Source: Aphrocallistes beatrix (lineage: Eukaryota; Porifera; Hexactinellida; Sceptrulophora; Aphrocallistidae). From it: a DNA stretch of 64,000 bases. The position numbers and the translations under genes were made by a program. The notes under the pieces were generated by a model. That model was given only the letters and a program-made list of their open reading frames with translations. It ran no database searches and was not told the DNA's origin. The first letter of the stretch is position 1. The number at the start of each line of letters is the position of its first letter. Location of the stretch: positions 1,860,001-1,924,000 of the forward strand of contig OY725500.1 in assembly GCA_963281255.1 (NCBI GenBank), in the 5' to 3' direction. Below, piece after piece: positions 32,794 to 62,537 of this stretch.

Positions 32794-33497
32794 TGAACAA
32801 CGAAGACGCATATACTTTTCTGAGTCAAAGCTACAGCAGTTGTAACGCAGCGCGCAAATACATGGAAATCTTCAATTTAGAATCCTATTTTAACTCTCTG
32901 AAATCTAAATTTAATAAATCAAAATTATCAAGGCCAACCTAGGTGAAGAATCAAAATATGGATACATGGAATTCCCAACCTTTTGAGCCACGTGAGTCAC
33001 AAGTTATAAATTTTCACAAGAAACGCAAGTCTGTTTCTACAGACGACTCAATTGAAAATATTCCCCTTGAAAAGTATGCTCCGATTGTAGTTATAAATAC
33101 GTAACTTTGTGGTTAAATTGCACAAATGGTGTTTTTGCTGAGCCAATCTGTAATAAGCGAAAAGACATTGGTGAATTGAAATTAGAATCCCAAAGGTCTA
33201 GACTCAATGTCTTACTGAAACATATACAGTTTATTGCTAACAATGAATGTGTATTAATGAGCGGTGCTGGCGGTGCTTCGTGTCAATTATGCACTGTCAC
33301 TCATGCTCAACTCAAAGATCTTGAACTATTTAGAACTTGTTTTTCCAATTAATCGACAGATTCAAGATGCGATTACAATATGTAATGACGTGGATCAAGA
33401 AGAATTTCTCAATTTCGACTCTAATTCGAGATTTGGATTAACTCATCCGCCTACCTCTAGTATAGATATAATTCCAGCCATCACCACTACATAGCTA
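32794..33497 (+). pseudogene. RAG1/Transib-like transposase fragment (copy 1)
   Basis: Starts at ATG 32794 with MNNEDAYTFLSQSYSS, close to the N-terminus of the 45.9 kb copy. Later fragments include SGAGGASCQLCT (33260-33300, the zinc-binding CxxC region), FPINRQIQDAITICNDVDQE and SNSRFGLTHPPTSS. The catalytic first Asp region and everything after the TSS motif are missing, and several frame changes and stops are present. No ends recognised. It is an older, internally deleted member of the family. Confidence 0.82.
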
Positions 33498-34017
33498 TCT
33501 TTGCGTTTTTCGATGGTTCATGTTATTGTAGAATACGAGGATAGAAAGAGATGAGAGCGAGCTATCACGAACATCATCTATTTTACTGTTATTTTAACAT
33601 AGTTTGTTACAAATAAAACAAAATATTGTTGGTATGATATTGAAAATGTATAAAGTTGATTAAATTACATTGTTAGATTTATGAGTAGATAATATCTGGG
33701 GACATGAAATAGCTTTTACGCTAAGCAGATAGATTTTTAAGGATTTAAATTCTCATCCTCTACTTTATCCATGGTACATTTGATACCAGGCCTTATATTG
33801 AGTTGGCTATGCACAAATATAATACAACTCTCACCAAAAAATGATGACACATCACTCTGTTATGACGTCATCAAAACGCATAAAAAATTGAAAAACTGAC
33901 TAATTTGTGATTTTGAGCCATAGCTAAAGACTCCCATATGACAAACACACACACACACATATATATATATATACATGAATCGAGTTTTAATAGTAAGGAT
34001 ATAGTATCTAACATTAC

Positions 34018-45310: not shown

Positions 45311-48250
45311 CACAATGGCACGGCAGGTGGCTTTTGGATGGAAATTCATAACAGAATTTCTTTCTAATGTTGATTTTCGAAATCAGCATACTCGTAAACC
45401 TAGGAAACCAAATTTCATTCTTGGAATTTCATTTCCGTTAACCTCATATTACTCTTCACAGGCATGTCATCTTCAATATTCCAAAAGTATAAATTTAGGT
45501 TTCGATTTTCGACTATGATGTAATTCAGAATAATAAAGGCTCCCCTCATCGGCTCATCCTAAGTTGTGATTATTATATATCAATCAATAGCTCTTTTTCT
45601 GCTGAATAATAATTGATATACTTCGTTACTGCATTTACTATCCGGAATTTGATGTTCTAATTTTAAAACTGAGTGGATTTCCAAGTCGTATAAAAATAAA
45701 CCGCGCTGCTTAAAGTGATAGAACTAATTTTGCCTATGCTTGCGAGTTATAAGATTTATATATAATATAAAATTTATAGCTATTCCCAAGCTTTCCGAAA
45801 TTTGTTACATTAACTTTTCTAATTTACCGATTTGTAATTTCATCATTTTTTCAAAAAATTGACACATTTTTTATTTTATGGGTGATTAGCAATTTGACAA
45901 ACTATCGAACATGAATAACGAAGAAGCTTATAGTTTCTATCTTACCAACTCGGATAAAAGTTTTAGTGATATTTCTCGTATGTTTATTGAAGAACATGGC
46001 TGTAAGGATTATCAAGTTGACCATTTGCGAAGGAAATTCTCTGAAATAAAGAAAGAGATATTGACTTATCTGAGGAGGGAGGATTTACCGACTTGGAACC
46101 AGTTGTTCTTTTGCACATCTTCAGATCCATCGCACAGTGATCTCAATATTCCAATGAAGATTCTCCCTTGGAACAGTTTCCTCTAACTTTCGAAATCCAG
46201 GAGAATTTCAGTCAGATACGTGGAAAACACATCAGCCAGTTACAGAATAAGGCAATTCGGAACCGACTCAACAAACTTAGATCTCACGTTGAAGTAGTTC
46301 CGAAAACTATAGTTATGTATCTGGTTAAATTATACTCATTGGAGGAGCACGATAAAGGTACAGCTAATGTTATCACACATATAATCAATACATGAAAGTT
46401 CGGGCAATTCGGTGACAAGCTGTCTTTAGATACATCCGCTTTCTTGTTAGACTACCTTGAAATTGGAAAATCGAAATATATTGATCTGAGGCGTGTACTA
46501 TTGATAGAATCCATCATCCTCCCTGGTTATAATCGAGTTGCTCTTCATCGAAGTCAGATTAGTTTAGCTGAAGAAGTTAAGTTAGTGGAGAGAGACTATC
46601 CGATTGGTATCAGTATATCATACAGTAAACTGCTCACACATACAATTAACAGAGTTCTATTGAATATTCCTCTCGATGATTGTGGACAACAACTCAAAGT
46701 TCGTATTTCTGATGGGTTGGATGGATCAGGTTCCCATCGCGTGTATCAGCATGCTACTTCATATCTGGATATCACAACTAAAAATTTTATCTTGTTTTGC
46801 TTCAAACTGCTAACAATTACAGACATTCATGATAATACTCTCTGGAAAAACATAGCACCAAATTCTCCCTTTACCATTCGACCAATTACCTTACTCGCCC
46901 TCCCCGAAAATGAGGATAATATTAGTTTTCTTATGAAAAAAACCATCAACATAGAAACGAGTGAAATTGTGGCAAACGGATTAGATTTAATTAACGGTCA
47001 TCATGCTACAGTATAGGTTTTACGGTCACAGGTAGATGGTAAAATGGCTCAGATTCTCAGCGGTGCAGGAGGTGCAGTCTGCCAGTTCTGTACTGCTACA
47101 TTCGGCCAGATTCATGACGTGGACATTGTAAATGACGGCTTTCCTATTAATAGATACGTTAGTGATGCCATAAGTCTATTCGAGGAGGTCAAAGAGGAGC
47201 ATTTCTTGTCTTTATCTACTGATCAGCGGTATAACCTCACGCATGCCCCATTATCTGACATAGATATAGTCCCCAGTTCACCATTGCATGCTTATCTCAG
47301 GTGTTTCGGTTGGCTGATGCAATTGGTTGGACATCTGAATGCTGGAGTTTCCAAATGGTCACCAAGTTCAGCAAACGTCAAAGGTGCAAAGTTCTTTGTG
47401 TGCGGATTAGTGAAAGAAAAATTAAATATCCTGATTGATTTTGCTTCTTCTCAAGGCGGGACTACCACTACAGGGAATGTTGTCAGGCGCTGCTTAATCC
47501 GAAATACTGATAACGAGAAGGATTTCCTATATTGGGTGCTGTCAACACTACCGACTGAGCACAAAGACGCTATATTTTCATTCATACATACCTCGGAGCT
47601 GTCTTAAGAGTGTATAACTGTGGAAGACAAATCGATACAGAAGAATTAATAGTGGTATGTCGAAAACTCTACTTATTTATCCTAAATACATTTCCTTGGG
47701 CAAATATTACTCCGACGTTGCACAAGGTGTTAGCTCACGCACCAGAGATCATAATAACATTCAACAATGGCAAAGGGTTAGAACAACTATCTGAAGAAGG
47801 GCTTGAGGCGAGTAATAAGCTGATCCGCAGGTACAGAGAACGGTTATCCCTTAAGTTTTGTTTTGAAGATAACATAAGGGACGTTTTTACTCGAATGTTA
47901 TGCCAGAGCGACCCAGTGATATTACTGAATAGAAGAATAAAGAAATCAATTCAAAAGAAAAACACGATGGTTGAGGGTGTGGGCGAACAAGAAATACTTG
48001 TAAACAGACTTATTTTACAAGAGGATGATTAGAGCTTATTATGAATGACTTTATGAAATATTTAGTGTTCTTTATAATTGTAGCATCATGACAATAACCA
48101 CATAACTTGAAAACCTGAAGTCCCACATAAGTTTCATTGATTCCATTCGATTTTTTAGGTATGATAACCTATAGGCTAATAACACTTTTTACTAGTCTAT
48201 CGTTCAAAAAAATAGCCAATGCCACCAAAATGCCATTTCGTGCCACTGTG
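45311..48250 (+). mobile_element. RAG1/Transib-like transposon, copy 2
   Basis: The left end reads CACAATGGCACGGCAGGTGG and the inverted right end CACAGTGGCACGAAATGGCA; the first 12 bases agree except one. CAC(A/T)(A/G)TG ends are shared by Transib elements and by the heptamer of V(D)J recombination signals. CAACT precedes the left end and GCAACT follows the right, so a 5-bp duplication is possible with one extra base. The host MITE is rich in CAACT, which weakens that reading. It carries a nearly full-length transposase. Confidence 0.82.
45911..48032 (+). pseudogene. RAG1/Transib-like transposase, copy 2
   Basis: Starts at ATG 45911 (MNNEEAYSFYLTNSDKSF). The first catalytic Asp lies in RISDGLDGSGSHRVYQ (compare RAG1 Asp600), the second in SQVDGKMAQ (RAG1 Asp708), followed by the CxxC of AVCQFCTA (zinc ligands). 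Then LHAYLRCFGWLMQLVGHLN leads to TPTLHKVLAHAPEI, with the paired His of the RAG1 zinc site, and LSEEGLEASNK with the Glu matching RAG1 Glu962. Breaks: a frame change near 46160, TGA at 46393, TAG at 47014 and a frame change near 47595. The total would be about 700 residues. No RAG2-like gene and no RING domain are seen. Confidence 0.9.
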
Positions 48251-52143: not shown

Positions 52144-52567
52144 ATCCTTACTATTAAAACTCGATTAATGTGTATATATATAGATATACTCTAACCGGAC
52201 AAAAGTAATCGAAATCCTTACTATTTTCCATCATAATTAGTCATAAAGTGGGTCTATTCATTTNNNNNNNNNNNNNNNNNNNNNNNNNNNNNNNNNNNNN
52301 NNNNNNNNNNNNNNNNNNNNNNNNNNNNNNNNNNNNNNNNNNNNNNNNNNNNNNNNNNNNNNNNNNNNNNNNNNNNNNNNNNNNNNNNNNNNNNNNNNNN
52401 NNNNNNNNNNNNNNNNNNNNNNNNNNNNNNNNNNNNNNNNNNNNNNNNNNNNNNNNNNNNNNNCATCCCCATTGTACTTAATAAATGTGGCCCCAGGCGC
52501 CCAAAGGGCGCCTCCGGTGGAGACAAAGTGTCCGCTAGCCGCGCAGCGCAAGCGAAGCGCGCTTGTT
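52144..52567 (-). repeat. GC-head repeat, inverted copy containing the assembly gap
   Basis: The tail (complement TCCTTACTATTAAAACTCGA) lies at 52144 and the head (complement of ACAAGCGCGCTTCGC) ends near 52567. A run of exactly 200 N at 52264-52463 sits in its middle. The gap probably reflects failure to assemble across neighbouring inverted copies. Confidence 0.75.
52264..52463. other. Assembly gap
   Basis: 200 consecutive N. The round length suggests a placeholder of arbitrary size. Nothing can be said about its content, and frames spanning it are meaningless. Confidence 0.99.
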
Positions 52568-53025: not shown

Positions 53026-53445
53026 ATACAGTGGAACCTGTATATAACGGCCACCCAAGGGACTGGACAAAATTGGCCGTTATACACAGGTGACCGCTAT
53101 ATACAGGTGATTGTCTTAATCCCCAAAAGGTATCAACGTAGTGCAATAAATATAAGTTTTTAGAAATCCATTACTTGAAGTAATTACATGAAACTTGTTT
53201 ATCGTTCGTAACTGGTCCAGTATTAAACACATAAAAAGGTGAAAAAGGTGATGACCGTTATAGACAGGTGATGGCCATTATAGATAGGTAGTGGCCGTTA
53301 TAGACAGGCGATGGCCGTTATACACAGTTTTAGGGTCAGTAATGGACTACAAACTGGTGGCCGCTTGCCGCGTTGAGCAGGTGACCGCTATACACAGGTT
53401 CAATATTATGGAATTTCGGACGGGACTGTTCATTAGTGACCGCTA

Positions 53446-56400
53446 CACAGTGGCTCAGAATGATCATTATCTTCGAATTGACATTTAGAAGACTCTTAGA
53501 CAGGTGGAATGTATTATTTGCATATGGGTTATCAACCATAAGGAGTCCATTGGTGCAATCAGATATTTTGTATGGCTTCAATTTCTTAAATTATGACGTC
53601 ACCATATTTTATAAAAATTCTTTAGCATTACTAAACAGACATTTAGAAGACTCTTAGACAGGTGGAATGTATTATTTGCCTATGGGTTATCAACCCTAAG
53701 GAGTCCATTGGTGTGCCATCATTATGATACTGCCTTGTTAGTAAGAACATTATATTTCTTTCTCGAAAAACGTTTGATAATATATTATAATATTTAAAAG
53801 TACTATATTATTATTTGACCCAAGGTAATGCATTGGCTAAACGAATTTGCATTTACTAGTAGTTTCCTCCTATTCATTTATAATCAACTAATCATCATTA
53901 TTGAGCATTATTTCTATGAAAATGAACCTACAGTTTACAATCTTTACAGAAAATGTCTGGTTCACACATTATAATTGATTTTACAATTATATCTTGCTGG
54001 GACAATTCTTGGGACGAGTCCTTTGACTGTTTAGTTTCAAATTTCTTGAAACTATTTCTCCTAATTGCCAGTAGAACGGGATCGCTTTGAGTTATAAGCC
54101 TTACGAAGATGTCTCTTACGTTATCTTCGAAGGAAGTTTTTCCGCTAGTTTATCCCTGAATGAACGCACATATTTGTTTAGTGCTTCTATGCATTCCTCT
54201 GAGTAGAGCTTAAGCCCGTATCCATGATTGAAGCTAGAGATGAGTTCTGTTGAATGTGCTAACCATTTGTGAAGGGAAGGGGTTGTGCTAACCCAAGGGA
54301 AATTGTTGACAATGTACATGTATGTCTCTTTACAAATGCTATCAAGCTTGCAAACATCCAATTTATGACTGCTGTTGTAAACACGGAGTATAGCGCCAAG
54401 GTTTGTGTGGATAGTCTGAACTTTTTCTTTGTCTTCTGGGTTAATCGTAGAGGTAATCCACTTTAGAAAATCGCGCTTGTTGTTAAAGCAATTTATCGCA
54501 ACATTTCCTGTCGAACTTGTTCCCCCATCACAAGAAGGCAGGTCAATATAGTATGAAGTTTCTTGCAATAACAAAGAACGAATTCTATTCATTGCATTTT
54601 TCACTCGGGAGGAGGTTGGGGACCACTTTGTCACACCTGCGTCGAGATGATATATTAGGAGCATTGGCCATCTAAATACACATAGGTAACTATGCAAGGG
54701 TGAAATAGCGAGAATGTCGTTCCCAGATATCGGAGGATGTGTGAAGCCAAATCTTGAATTTGAATCCATTTTCAAAAAATCTTCAACATTGACATCATTG
54801 AAGATTTCAATTGCATCATGAATATGCCGATTGATTGGAAATCCATCACTTATTAGAGTTGTGTCTTTTAGTTGATTGTGATTTGCAGTACATAATTGAC
54901 AGCTTGCTCCTCCAGCACCACTCAATGTTGCTGCCATTTAAGAATCAAATAGACTTCTAAATATCCTGACATTGACGTGCCCTCCTATAGTGTCAAATCC
55001 GGGAATGTTCTATTTTAAAGGTTTCGTGATTGGTCAGGGTTTTCATTATGAAATCGACACTTTCATGATTTTCTTTCAAAGACACCAATGTTATAGGTCT
55101 TGTTACGAATGGAGAATTTGGCGTATCTTTTAACCATAATATCTGATTTTTGTTGTTCTTGATTGTGAGTATTCTAAAAGCGAAAGATAAAGCTTTTGGT
55201 TGAGAAGCCTATGTGGCTGTTAACTTGATTGTAAACCTTATGACTGCCAGATCCGTCAAGGCCATCGGCTATTTCAATGTTTAAGGGAAAATGAGTTTCT
55301 TGTATTGGTCCTATCACCTCAATCAGTCTTTCGGTAGTAAATGATAGGATTTTCGAGTAGTTCATAGCGACGCCAATTGGGTAATTGTTGATGTTCTTCA
55401 CTATTTCAATATCGTTTGACAATGCTAGTTGATGTCGATATAATGAGACCTTCTTATAAGTTGGGACAATGAATCCTTCTGGTTTACAAATGAGCCTTAA
55501 TTGTGTGTATTTCCTCTTCCCAATTTCAAGGATATCAATGAGAGCTGCTGCCTTATCGAAGACTAAAATGCAATTCGATGGTGCAAAGGTTCCTGTGGAT
55601 ATAATTTCCTTGCACACTTTAGTGGTTTTTCGATCATATTCCCTTTGGGCAAGAATTTCGAGAGATAGTGTTGCTATTTTCTTTGCATCAACTGATTCTC
55701 TTTTAGCAATAAAATTAATGTGATCAATTAGAATTGATAGTTGCTTCGTGAGAGATTCAGTAGTTATATCAAGCTTATGTTTTCGAGATGGTAATATCTT
55801 CTCTTCAATAAACACTTCTTTCTCAGACGTAGTGTTTTTTGCTGAATTGTGCCTGAAAGAATCAGCAGAGATTGCCCCTTCTACATCATCGACAACTTCT
55901 TGGTGGTGAAAAAACACTTGACTATTCCAATTTTCAAGGCTTATCAACCTTAAGGAGAAAAACCTTTCGTTCCGAGATCAATCCTCTGAAACGGTATCTA
56001 AAGTGCTCAATTTCTGTTTGAGAAATCTGGAATAATTCCAGGAAATTCTTTGTAGCTTCATTTACGCTATCATTGTTACTTTTTAGGAGGTCATACGCTT
56101 CGAGGTTATTCATTGTTTGAAGATAGATATATTCGAATGTACTTCGCATCTTATTTATTTATGCTGATTCAAATTATTATACGCTCATTATTCGATTGAG
56201 TTAAATGCATATGATATTTAAGTTCAGAAAATTAGCATTATACGAGTATAATTGAATACCATGAGAAGAAATAAAATGCACTATTTGATCGTTTTTAGCC
56301 ATTGTTTTCAATCACATAGGGGAAAAACAGAGCTTATATTTTATAAGCTTCCTATAGAAAGAAAATGTAGAAAATACCATGTTATTTTCCAATGGGTTTA

Positions 56401-57201
56401 GTGGTAAATGTCCCAATAATATTCCAATTTCGGAGAATTCATAATATAGCATCGAATACAATGAAATAATATGCACCGTTTGATGCTATTATTAGACATT
56501 GTTTCTTATTGCACAAGGAGAAAACAGAGCTATCTAAAGGTTTCCCCCAGTATAGAACAACAATTAAGTATAACACAATGTATTTATCCACTGGTCTTAT
56601 TGATTTGATGTGAATACCTTCGAATTTTTAACATACCACAATAAGTGAAAATATTTTATGAATCCACAAATATTGGTCCGATTAGGCGAGCTGAAAGAGG
56701 TTCTTTGCGCCTTCGTACTATCCTAAACCCCATATATAAAACATGCAAAATCGAGCAAGCTTTTAGATAAGCAATGTCTTGTATAACCCATATGAACCCA
56801 CAAGAAGTTACAGCTTGTATAAGCTCATAAAACTTTGTTCTAAAATGGTGCCTCTATAGTTACTTATATCTAATTACCATTACAATATAGCGCCTGAAAT
56901 TTAGTTTTATCAAAAAGATCACGAAATTTTGATCTAGAATCTTCCATTTTGAAGAAAACTTCAGTTGTATTTTGCGATTCACAAATATTTGCAAAATGTG
57001 AGAATCTATGAATCCCAATAAACATCGAATTTTGAATTCTGGTCACAACCATATAATAAGGAATAGCTCGCAAAATAGGAAGTCAATCGTATTTTTTTTC
57101 TGGTTATAGGGTAATCAATATCGCTGGAAACGAATATCACAATATCGAATCGATTGGAAGTAGTAGAAAAATTTCCTATTCGAACATTCTGCCCCATAGT
57201 G
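53446..57201 (-). mobile_element. RAG1/Transib-like transposon, copy 3
   Basis: A 3756-bp element whose ends read CACAGTGGCTCAGAATGATC and, inverted, CACTATGGGGCAGAATGTTC: 16 of the first 20 bases agree. Flanking CGCTA (53441-53445) and CGGTA (57202-57206) form a 5-bp duplication with one mismatch, the length made by both Transib and RAG transposition. The first seven bases of the left end equal the consensus V(D)J heptamer. The insertion is inside a pogo-type MITE. A 75-bp direct duplication (53481-53555 and 53639-53713) lies near the left end. Confidence 0.92.
53975..56149 (-). pseudogene. RAG1/Transib-like transposase, copy 3
   Basis: Starts at ATG 56149 (MRSTFEYIYLQTMNNLEAYD). The core begins with IADGLDGSGSHKVYNQ (first Asp). 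The segment at 55173-54940 has the second Asp in LFDS directly before MAATLSGAGGASCQLCTA (CxxC). TTPSLHKWLAHSTEL (paired His) and YSEECIEALNK (catalytic Glu) follow, then EDNVRDIFVRLITQSDPVLL. Copies 2 and 3 align throughout but differ at many positions. Breaks: frame changes near 55940, 55180 and 54985, and a TAA at 54938. The C-terminus ends near 53975. Confidence 0.9.
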
Positions 57202-57259
57202 CGGTATAGACAGGTGACCGTTATATAGAGTGGCCGTTATAGCAGGTTCGACTGTATAT

Positions 57260-62112: not shown

Positions 62113-62537
62113 CAGTCGAACCTGCTATAATGGCCACTCTATATAACGCTCACCTATCTATAGCGGTCACCAATGAACAGTCCCGTCCGAAATTCCATAA
62201 TATTGATATAGCGGTCACCTGCTCAACGCGGCCAGCAAACACCCGTTTGTAGTCCCTTACTGACCTTAAAACTGTGTATAATGGCCATCACCTGTCTATA
62301 ACGGCCACTACCTGTCTATAACGGTCATCACCTTTTTCACCTTTTTATGTGTTTATTACAGGACCTGTGAACTATAAACACAAGTTTCATGCAATTACTT
62401 TAAGTAATGGAACTACATGTAGTAGCTATGTTTCATTCTAATAGGGTTAAGACAATCACCTGTATATAACGGTCACCTGTGTATAACGGCCAATTTTGTC
62501 CAGTCCCTTGGATGGCCATTATATACAGATTCCACTG
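62113..62537. mobile_element. Pogo-type MITE (425 bp), uninterrupted copy
   Basis: The ends CAGTCGAACCTGCTATAATG and, inverted, CAGTGGAATCTGTATATAAT are flanked by TA (62111-62112, 62538-62539). The internal CACCTGTCTATAACGGCC repeats match 53029-53445. This copy gives the empty site against which the RAG1-like insertion at 53446 can be read. Confidence 0.92.

Follow-up and report, generated by a model that had tools for sequence, protein, structure and literature searches.

The stretch of DNA analysed here, called the window, comprises 64,000 nucleotides from the glass sponge Aphrocallistes beatrix (contig OY725500.1, C14 in our numbering, positions 1860001-1924000); the genome searched amounts to 100.5 Mb in 28 contigs. 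The window carries a 3756-bp transposon with a transposase of the Transib/RAG1 type on the minus strand, hence the right end of the element is its 5' end (coordinates of all features are given in Table 1). A first-pass annotation had described it as a Transib/RAG-like element whose left end equals the V(D)J heptamer, and had left open whether it is nearer to Transib or to the RAG-like (ProtoRAG) branch. According to our analysis, the element belongs to a sponge family that quite probably represents single-gene cut-and-paste transposons of the 'Subgroup I' type in the Transib/RAG1 superfamily, for which we propose an end pairing with two spacings. The window copy itself is dead, because its transposase frame is split over at least three open reading frames (ORFs). 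The annotated core motifs were all recovered, DGLDGSGSH with the first acidic residue in the middle ORF, LHKWLAH and SEECIEALNK with the third acidic residue in the C-terminal ORF, which also holds a CxxC.

The boundaries of the element are well defined. It starts with CACAGTG on the left and with CACTATG, read inward from position 57201, on the right, and it is flanked by CGCTA and CGGTA, all as annotated. The insertion target was a miniature inverted-repeat transposable element (MITE), of which an uninterrupted copy exists in the window. The joined flanks, with a varying number of bp removed, were compared to the uninterrupted MITE copy near 62113-62537 in reverse complement. The alignment score was highest at exactly 5 bp (629, compared to 624 at 4 bp and 622 at 6 bp) and the junction was gap-free, i.e. 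the claimed empty site is restored by taking out the element plus 5 bp.

The kinship of the transposase is detectable with the C-terminal ORF of the window copy alone (E=2.8e-6 against HzTransib), and a profile of the family matches HzTransib with 3e-49, amphioxus RAG1L with 1.9e-21 and mouse RAG1 with 1.5e-20; judged from these comparisons, the relation to Transib/RAG1 is beyond chance. A Transib/RAG1-related transposase with three acidic motifs, the hallmark of the Transib superfamily, is present. The middle ORF of the window copy alone found no relative among the PDB set, none of the tested window ORFs reached a RAG1 family of Pfam, and Pfam gave no RAG1 match with the L002 protein, a weak one with the intact L006 protein (18.2 bits, below the cut-off of 25) and matches above the cut-off with P0043 and P0018. 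In an unrooted tree of 32 proteins, the sponge family stays with the Transib and RAG1 sequences. Protein kinship, ends and flanks support the annotation as a transposon of the Transib/RAG1 type whose ends start with CAC and whose insertion duplicates 5 bp. In the same tree, which included no Subgroup I sequence, the RAG1L/RAG1 clade (support 100/100) does not contain the sponge proteins. The choice between the Transib and the ProtoRAG branch is thereby narrowed, as the family has one gene, lies outside that clade in this unrooted tree and shows traits published for Subgroup I Transibs.

Several traits of the sponge proteins bear on the possibility that the family is not a Transib but a RAG-like (RAGL/ProtoRAG) transposon from which the RAG2-like gene has disappeared. 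The N-terminal region is, by profile comparison, homologous to the nonamer-binding domain (NBD) of RAG1; it scores 36.8 with the mouse RAG1 NBD, whereas the RAG1L NBD scores 20.4 and insect Transibs 11.0 with that mouse domain, all from alignments of unequal depth. A C-terminal zinc knuckle C-x2-C-x3-G/N-H-x3-6-C was found in 10/13 sponge proteins, 0/72 HzTransib-type proteins and 25/25 RAG1L proteins, counting proteins with enough tail (13 of 52, 72 of 120 and 25 of 47, respectively). One of the three sponge proteins missing the standard knuckle has a variant of it, and the knuckle is seemingly absent in the window subfamily (L003 frame) and the L026 type. The distance from CxxC to LH is 62-64 in the sponge proteins (38/52 measured), 25-32 in HzTransib-type proteins (106/120) and 65 in RAG1L (4/47), so the alpha11-alpha12 insert of the zinc domain is present by length, not by structure. 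The knuckle tail and the long insert resemble the RAG1-like proteins in type, not HzTransib, and these shared traits, as well as the better NBD match compared to insect Transibs, are what speaks for a RAGL origin. Against it stand the position outside the RAG1L/RAG1 clade, the higher profile score with HzTransib than with RAG1L, and the coding content. L021, L023 and L026, which measure 3.0-3.4 kb, contain one frame of at least 400 codons each and no second one, and screening the genome for RAG2 with Pfam returned 0 matches, with a search control that was likewise silent. The RAG2-like neighbour for which the first-pass annotation suggested a search was hence not seen in the frames of these three elements, the Pfam result being limited by its silent control. 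Altogether, we regard the loss of a RAG2-like gene from a RAGL transposon as very unlikely.

The relatives in the genome give the ends of the window element a wider meaning. At the tabulated ends, CACAGTG, the consensus V(D)J heptamer (PMC8289069), is exact at 18/19 3' ends and 13/19 5' ends. The other 5' ends are CACAATG (3), CACTATG (2) and CACAACG (1); CACTATG is shared by the window element and its relative L029, and the sole deviating 3' end, CACAATG, lies in a contig of a bacterial bin (see below). All 38 tabulated ends, sought with CAC-based patterns, start with CAC, and 24 of them belong to the 12 elements with a checked flanking duplication. The heptamer counts are therefore biased upward, since many ends were located by searching such motifs. 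The identity with the V(D)J heptamer is confirmed and no accident of the window copy, because further families in this genome have it as well.

Besides the heptamer, the ends contain a second motif of about 10 bp. In 6/8 families it occupies bases 18-27 at the 5' end and bases 27-36 at the 3' end. Its letters vary between families, but within an element the 5' and 3' versions tend to match. The L023 type carries AAAGAATAGG at both ends, L021 has AGGGAGTTGA (5') and AGGGAGTTGG (3'), L026 has TTGCATTAGC (5') and TGGTATTGAC (3'), and a second Transib copy in the window has TGGCTTTTGG (5') and TGGCATTGGC (3'), which agree at 7/10 letters, all at the positions 18-27 and 27-36; other inner motifs are GGGAGTTG and AAATAGG. 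With one element per family, a shift of +9 was the best of 36 shifts in 6/8 families. In L035 (1221-5595) the motif occurs at 18-27 and 29-38, i.e. with a shift of +11, which is the 12/23 difference, and L039 showed no preferred shift between its two ends. The nonamer-like motif for which a search had been proposed hence exists at two spacings; a vertebrate-like nonamer was rejected, as AAAGAATAGG, AGGGAGTTGG and TTCGAATAGG do not resemble ACAAAAACC.

That AT-rich ends produced this geometry by chance might be suspected from the short motifs, the few families and the fact that the pattern was spotted before it was tested. A first shuffle test kept the 5' stretch 18-27 constant, and 0/20000 shuffles reached the observed agreement. 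In a scan of position pairs over six families, 18/27 came out on top, tied with 15/24 of the same shift, and 0/5000 shuffles were equal; after a seventh element was added, 15/24 was ahead by one. Across the genome, an open search for CACAGTG followed by 3-33 bases and GAATAGG gave 35 sites, and the reversed control 2. Nine of these sites have a spacer of 13 bases (one sequence) and 16 a spacer of 22 bases (9 distinct sequences, approximately 4 lineages), the remaining 10 being spread over 9 other lengths. Six new loci were fetched via the 22-base sites. A 5' end was found in three of them (L052, L054 and L056), not in the other three, and the motif stands at 18-27 in 3/3; each of these 5' ends was the best of several candidates in its duplication and its initial 12 bases, and the inner motif played no part in the choice. 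In view of the shuffles and the spacer peaks, chance is extremely improbable.

More weight has to be given to the explanation that the transposase reads the first 12-17 bp only, the second motif being either a relic common to both ends or an element with another role, for example as promoter or for a host factor. Invertebrate RAGL is reported to rely on the first 15-17 bp and to be relatively insensitive to asymmetry (PMC7204232), and some of our own data weigh against a paired inner motif: the ends of L026 agree at 6/10 letters only, with other 10-mers of both ends agreeing better, the second window copy scores slightly better at a shift of -2 (8 versus 7), and the longest block shared by the ends of L035, GGGTGAAATT, lies at a different offset (26 and 21). 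However, the motif letters change between families and yet, at fixed positions, those of the 5' and 3' ends in an element tend to match. Such a joint change is not expected from descent alone, which weakens the relic explanation, and we consider it unlikely, clearly less so than chance. The asymmetric paired ends, a trait of Subgroup I, are present at 18/27 in 6/8 families and at 18/29 in one, and a single-gene Transib of this type with two end spacings is the interpretation that we prefer.

Table 1. Features of the window, numbered from its first letter.
Feature	Position	Strand	Remark
Second Transib copy, another subfamily	45311..48250	+	closest to L026
Transposase of second copy, in pieces	45911..48029	+	
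Host MITE, left part of interrupted copy	53026..53445	+	
Target-site duplication, left copy	53441..53445	+	CGCTA
Transib-type transposon, dead copy, 3756 bp	53446..57201	-	from ends, flanks and empty site
3'-end heptamer	53446..53452	+	CACAGTG, identical to consensus V(D)J heptamer
3'-end second motif	53472..53481	+	TTCGAATTGA, bases 27-36 of the end
Transposase, C-terminal piece	54116..54937	-	CxxC, LHKWLAH, SEECIEALNK
Transposase, middle piece	55174..55947	-	DGLDGSGSH
Region homologous to RAG1 NBD	55585..55794	-	by sequence similarity
Transposase, N-terminal piece	55934..56149	-	
5'-end second motif	57175..57184	-	TTCGAATAGG, bases 18-27 of the end
5'-end heptamer	57195..57201	-	CACTATG
Target-site duplication, right copy	57202..57206	+	CGGTA, 4/5 match with left copy
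Host MITE, right part of interrupted copy	57202..57256	+	
Uninterrupted MITE copy (empty site)	62113..62537	-	

A six-frame genome search with the C-terminal ORF of the window copy revealed at least 151 matching stretches, counted piece by piece, and open frames of 681-761 codons exist at several relative loci. The L023 type is present in five copies of 3412-3425 bp with a mutual identity of 99.21-99.85%. In four of them the 5-bp duplications are perfect and differ from one another; that of the fifth is perfect once one extra base is allowed. A 734-codon frame is open in three copies (L023, L024 and L027; the same loci are also labelled L006, L007 and L011) and split in the remaining two. The near-identical copies, distinct duplications and intact frames point to recent movement of this type. 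A protein search with intact L006, in which scoring was limited to the 7995 candidates sharing most words, returned 52 proteins; all 9 with a species name belong to the glass sponge Oopsacas minuta, and one further protein is 99% identical.

The genome search proposed in the first-pass annotation also confirmed that the 5-bp duplication recurs. Among the 12 full elements, 8 have a perfect duplication, 2 match at 4/5 (the window copy and L035), and 2 become perfect when a single surplus base at the 3' junction is set aside, namely in L024 (position 4394) and the second window copy (a G at 48250, duplication CAACT). Imprecise processing of the ends may have left this surplus base. In three deleted elements that were found later, the match is 5/5, 4/5 and 3/5. 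Copies ending at different bases were not seen among the ends that could be fixed, all of which have the same kind of terminal base. This agreement refers to fixable ends, as at many loci one or both were not found: neither end was fixed in L031, L033, L036, L037, L040, L044, L047, L049 and L050, and only one in L022, L029, L030, L034, L042, L043, L045, L048, L053, L055 and L057.

The window includes a third, small transposase fragment of the Transib/RAG1 superfamily at 33194-33528. A 76-bp direct repeat (97%) lies at 53480-53555 and 53638-53713, near the 3' end of the 3756-bp element, and a 20-bp part of it is found again at 55938-55957. A run of 200 N stands at 52264-52463, just beyond the element.

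Transib DNA of this type also occurs outside sponge assemblies. Three peptide patterns taken from the sponge profile were scanned against a collection of 84,980 prokaryotic species, a scan that relatives free of these patterns would escape; it gave one relative, a metagenome-bin contig assigned to Candidatus Paceibacter (JABAAK010000070.1, L051). It contains a deleted element with a 32-residue stretch approximately 91% identical to the sponge transposase and a 3' end of the same design, has no frame above 119 codons, and its GC content of 0.356 equals that of the window. Hence, this contig is likely sponge DNA in a bacterial assembly. As glass-sponge Transib DNA apparently enters bacterial bins, reported bacterial Transibs deserve a check for contamination.

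Regarding the mechanism, we propose that two transposase molecules bind the two ends of the element, where the catalytic core would read the CACAGTG heptamer and the NBD-homologous N-terminal domain would be the reader of the second motif. Between heptamer and second motif there are 10 bp at the 5' end and 19 bp at the 3' end (21 bp in one family). A short-spaced and a long-spaced end would be preferred as a pair, comparable to the 12/23 rule. From the family membership, the cut is expected next to CAC and the insertion with a stagger of 5 bp, which would produce the 5-bp duplication; a hairpin step and present-day activity are presumed as well. The higher score with mouse RAG1 makes the sponge N-terminus a region that may be a good model for the role of the NBD before RAG. 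The family represents a strong test case for the long-standing question of the origin of the 12/23 rule, since its numerous members, some of them recent copies whose frames are intact, permit a comparison of spacing, inner motif and NBD-like domain family by family. It can be viewed as a natural experiment in which a RAG1-like enzyme co-evolves with its signals, with RAG2 not seen so far.

Asymmetric Transib ends and the NBD are already known as such. Subgroup I Transibs were described with asymmetric ends, the CTT1 knuckle, the alpha11-alpha12 region and an NBD equivalent (Tao et al., 2022; PMC9435367), and the sponge family, also single-gene, matches these traits at the sequence level. The Transibs of that paper are bacterial, fungal, plant and ctenophore ones plus 'hundreds in other metazoans' that are unnamed; its main text does not mention sponges, and sponge Transibs may be among the unnamed ones. 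No description of a sponge Transib was found in a literature search by listings, with subscription papers mostly outside its scope, and the main texts of the genome papers on Oopsacas minuta and Aphrocallistes vastus do not contain the words 'Transib' or 'RAG1'. Within this search, a sponge family with the exact heptamer at both ends, the 18/27 geometry and a close NBD match was not found in print.

Among the closest known systems, HzTransib (6pqn family of structures) was solved as a 497-residue chain without the N-terminal NBD region, its relatives have a short zinc-domain insert and no knuckle tail, and its ends, likewise most Transib ends, are called symmetric (PMC8289069); some insect Transibs are reported to have 12/23-like spacing (PMC8355894). 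Amphioxus ProtoRAG shares asymmetric bipartite ends and the knuckle tail with the sponge family, and its CACTATG equals the 5' heptamer of the window element, but its spacers are 27/31, its TR5 motif is GCCATCTTG, and RAG2L is present (PMC8289069). Vertebrate RAG1 with its 12/23 recombination signal sequences resembles the sponge system in the CACAGTG heptamer, a second motif at two spacings and the NBD homology; in contrast, it requires RAG2 and reads the nonamer ACAAAAACC, and its spacers differ by 11, compared to 9 for the 10/19 of the sponge elements (11 in L035 only). The closest geometry is that of AanRAGL from the alga Aureococcus, whose 13-bp and 10-bp elements are 4 and 13 bp apart (PMC9435367), which by arithmetic places its second elements at 18-27 and 27-36 as in the sponge, and which also makes 5-bp duplications; unlike the sponge elements, it encodes RAG1L and RAG2L, starts with CACACCC and has CCTCAAYAYG as second element. 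Glass-sponge Transibs and an algal RAGL thus share 18/27, and it is a tentative idea, to which we give somewhat under an even chance, that the V(D)J signal layout, with the CACAGTG heptamer and an inner motif at a short and a long spacing read by a RAG1-type NBD, was already present in RAG2-free transposons and is older than RAG. On this idea the 12/23 rule would not be a vertebrate invention but an ancestral rule of end pairing that was retuned.
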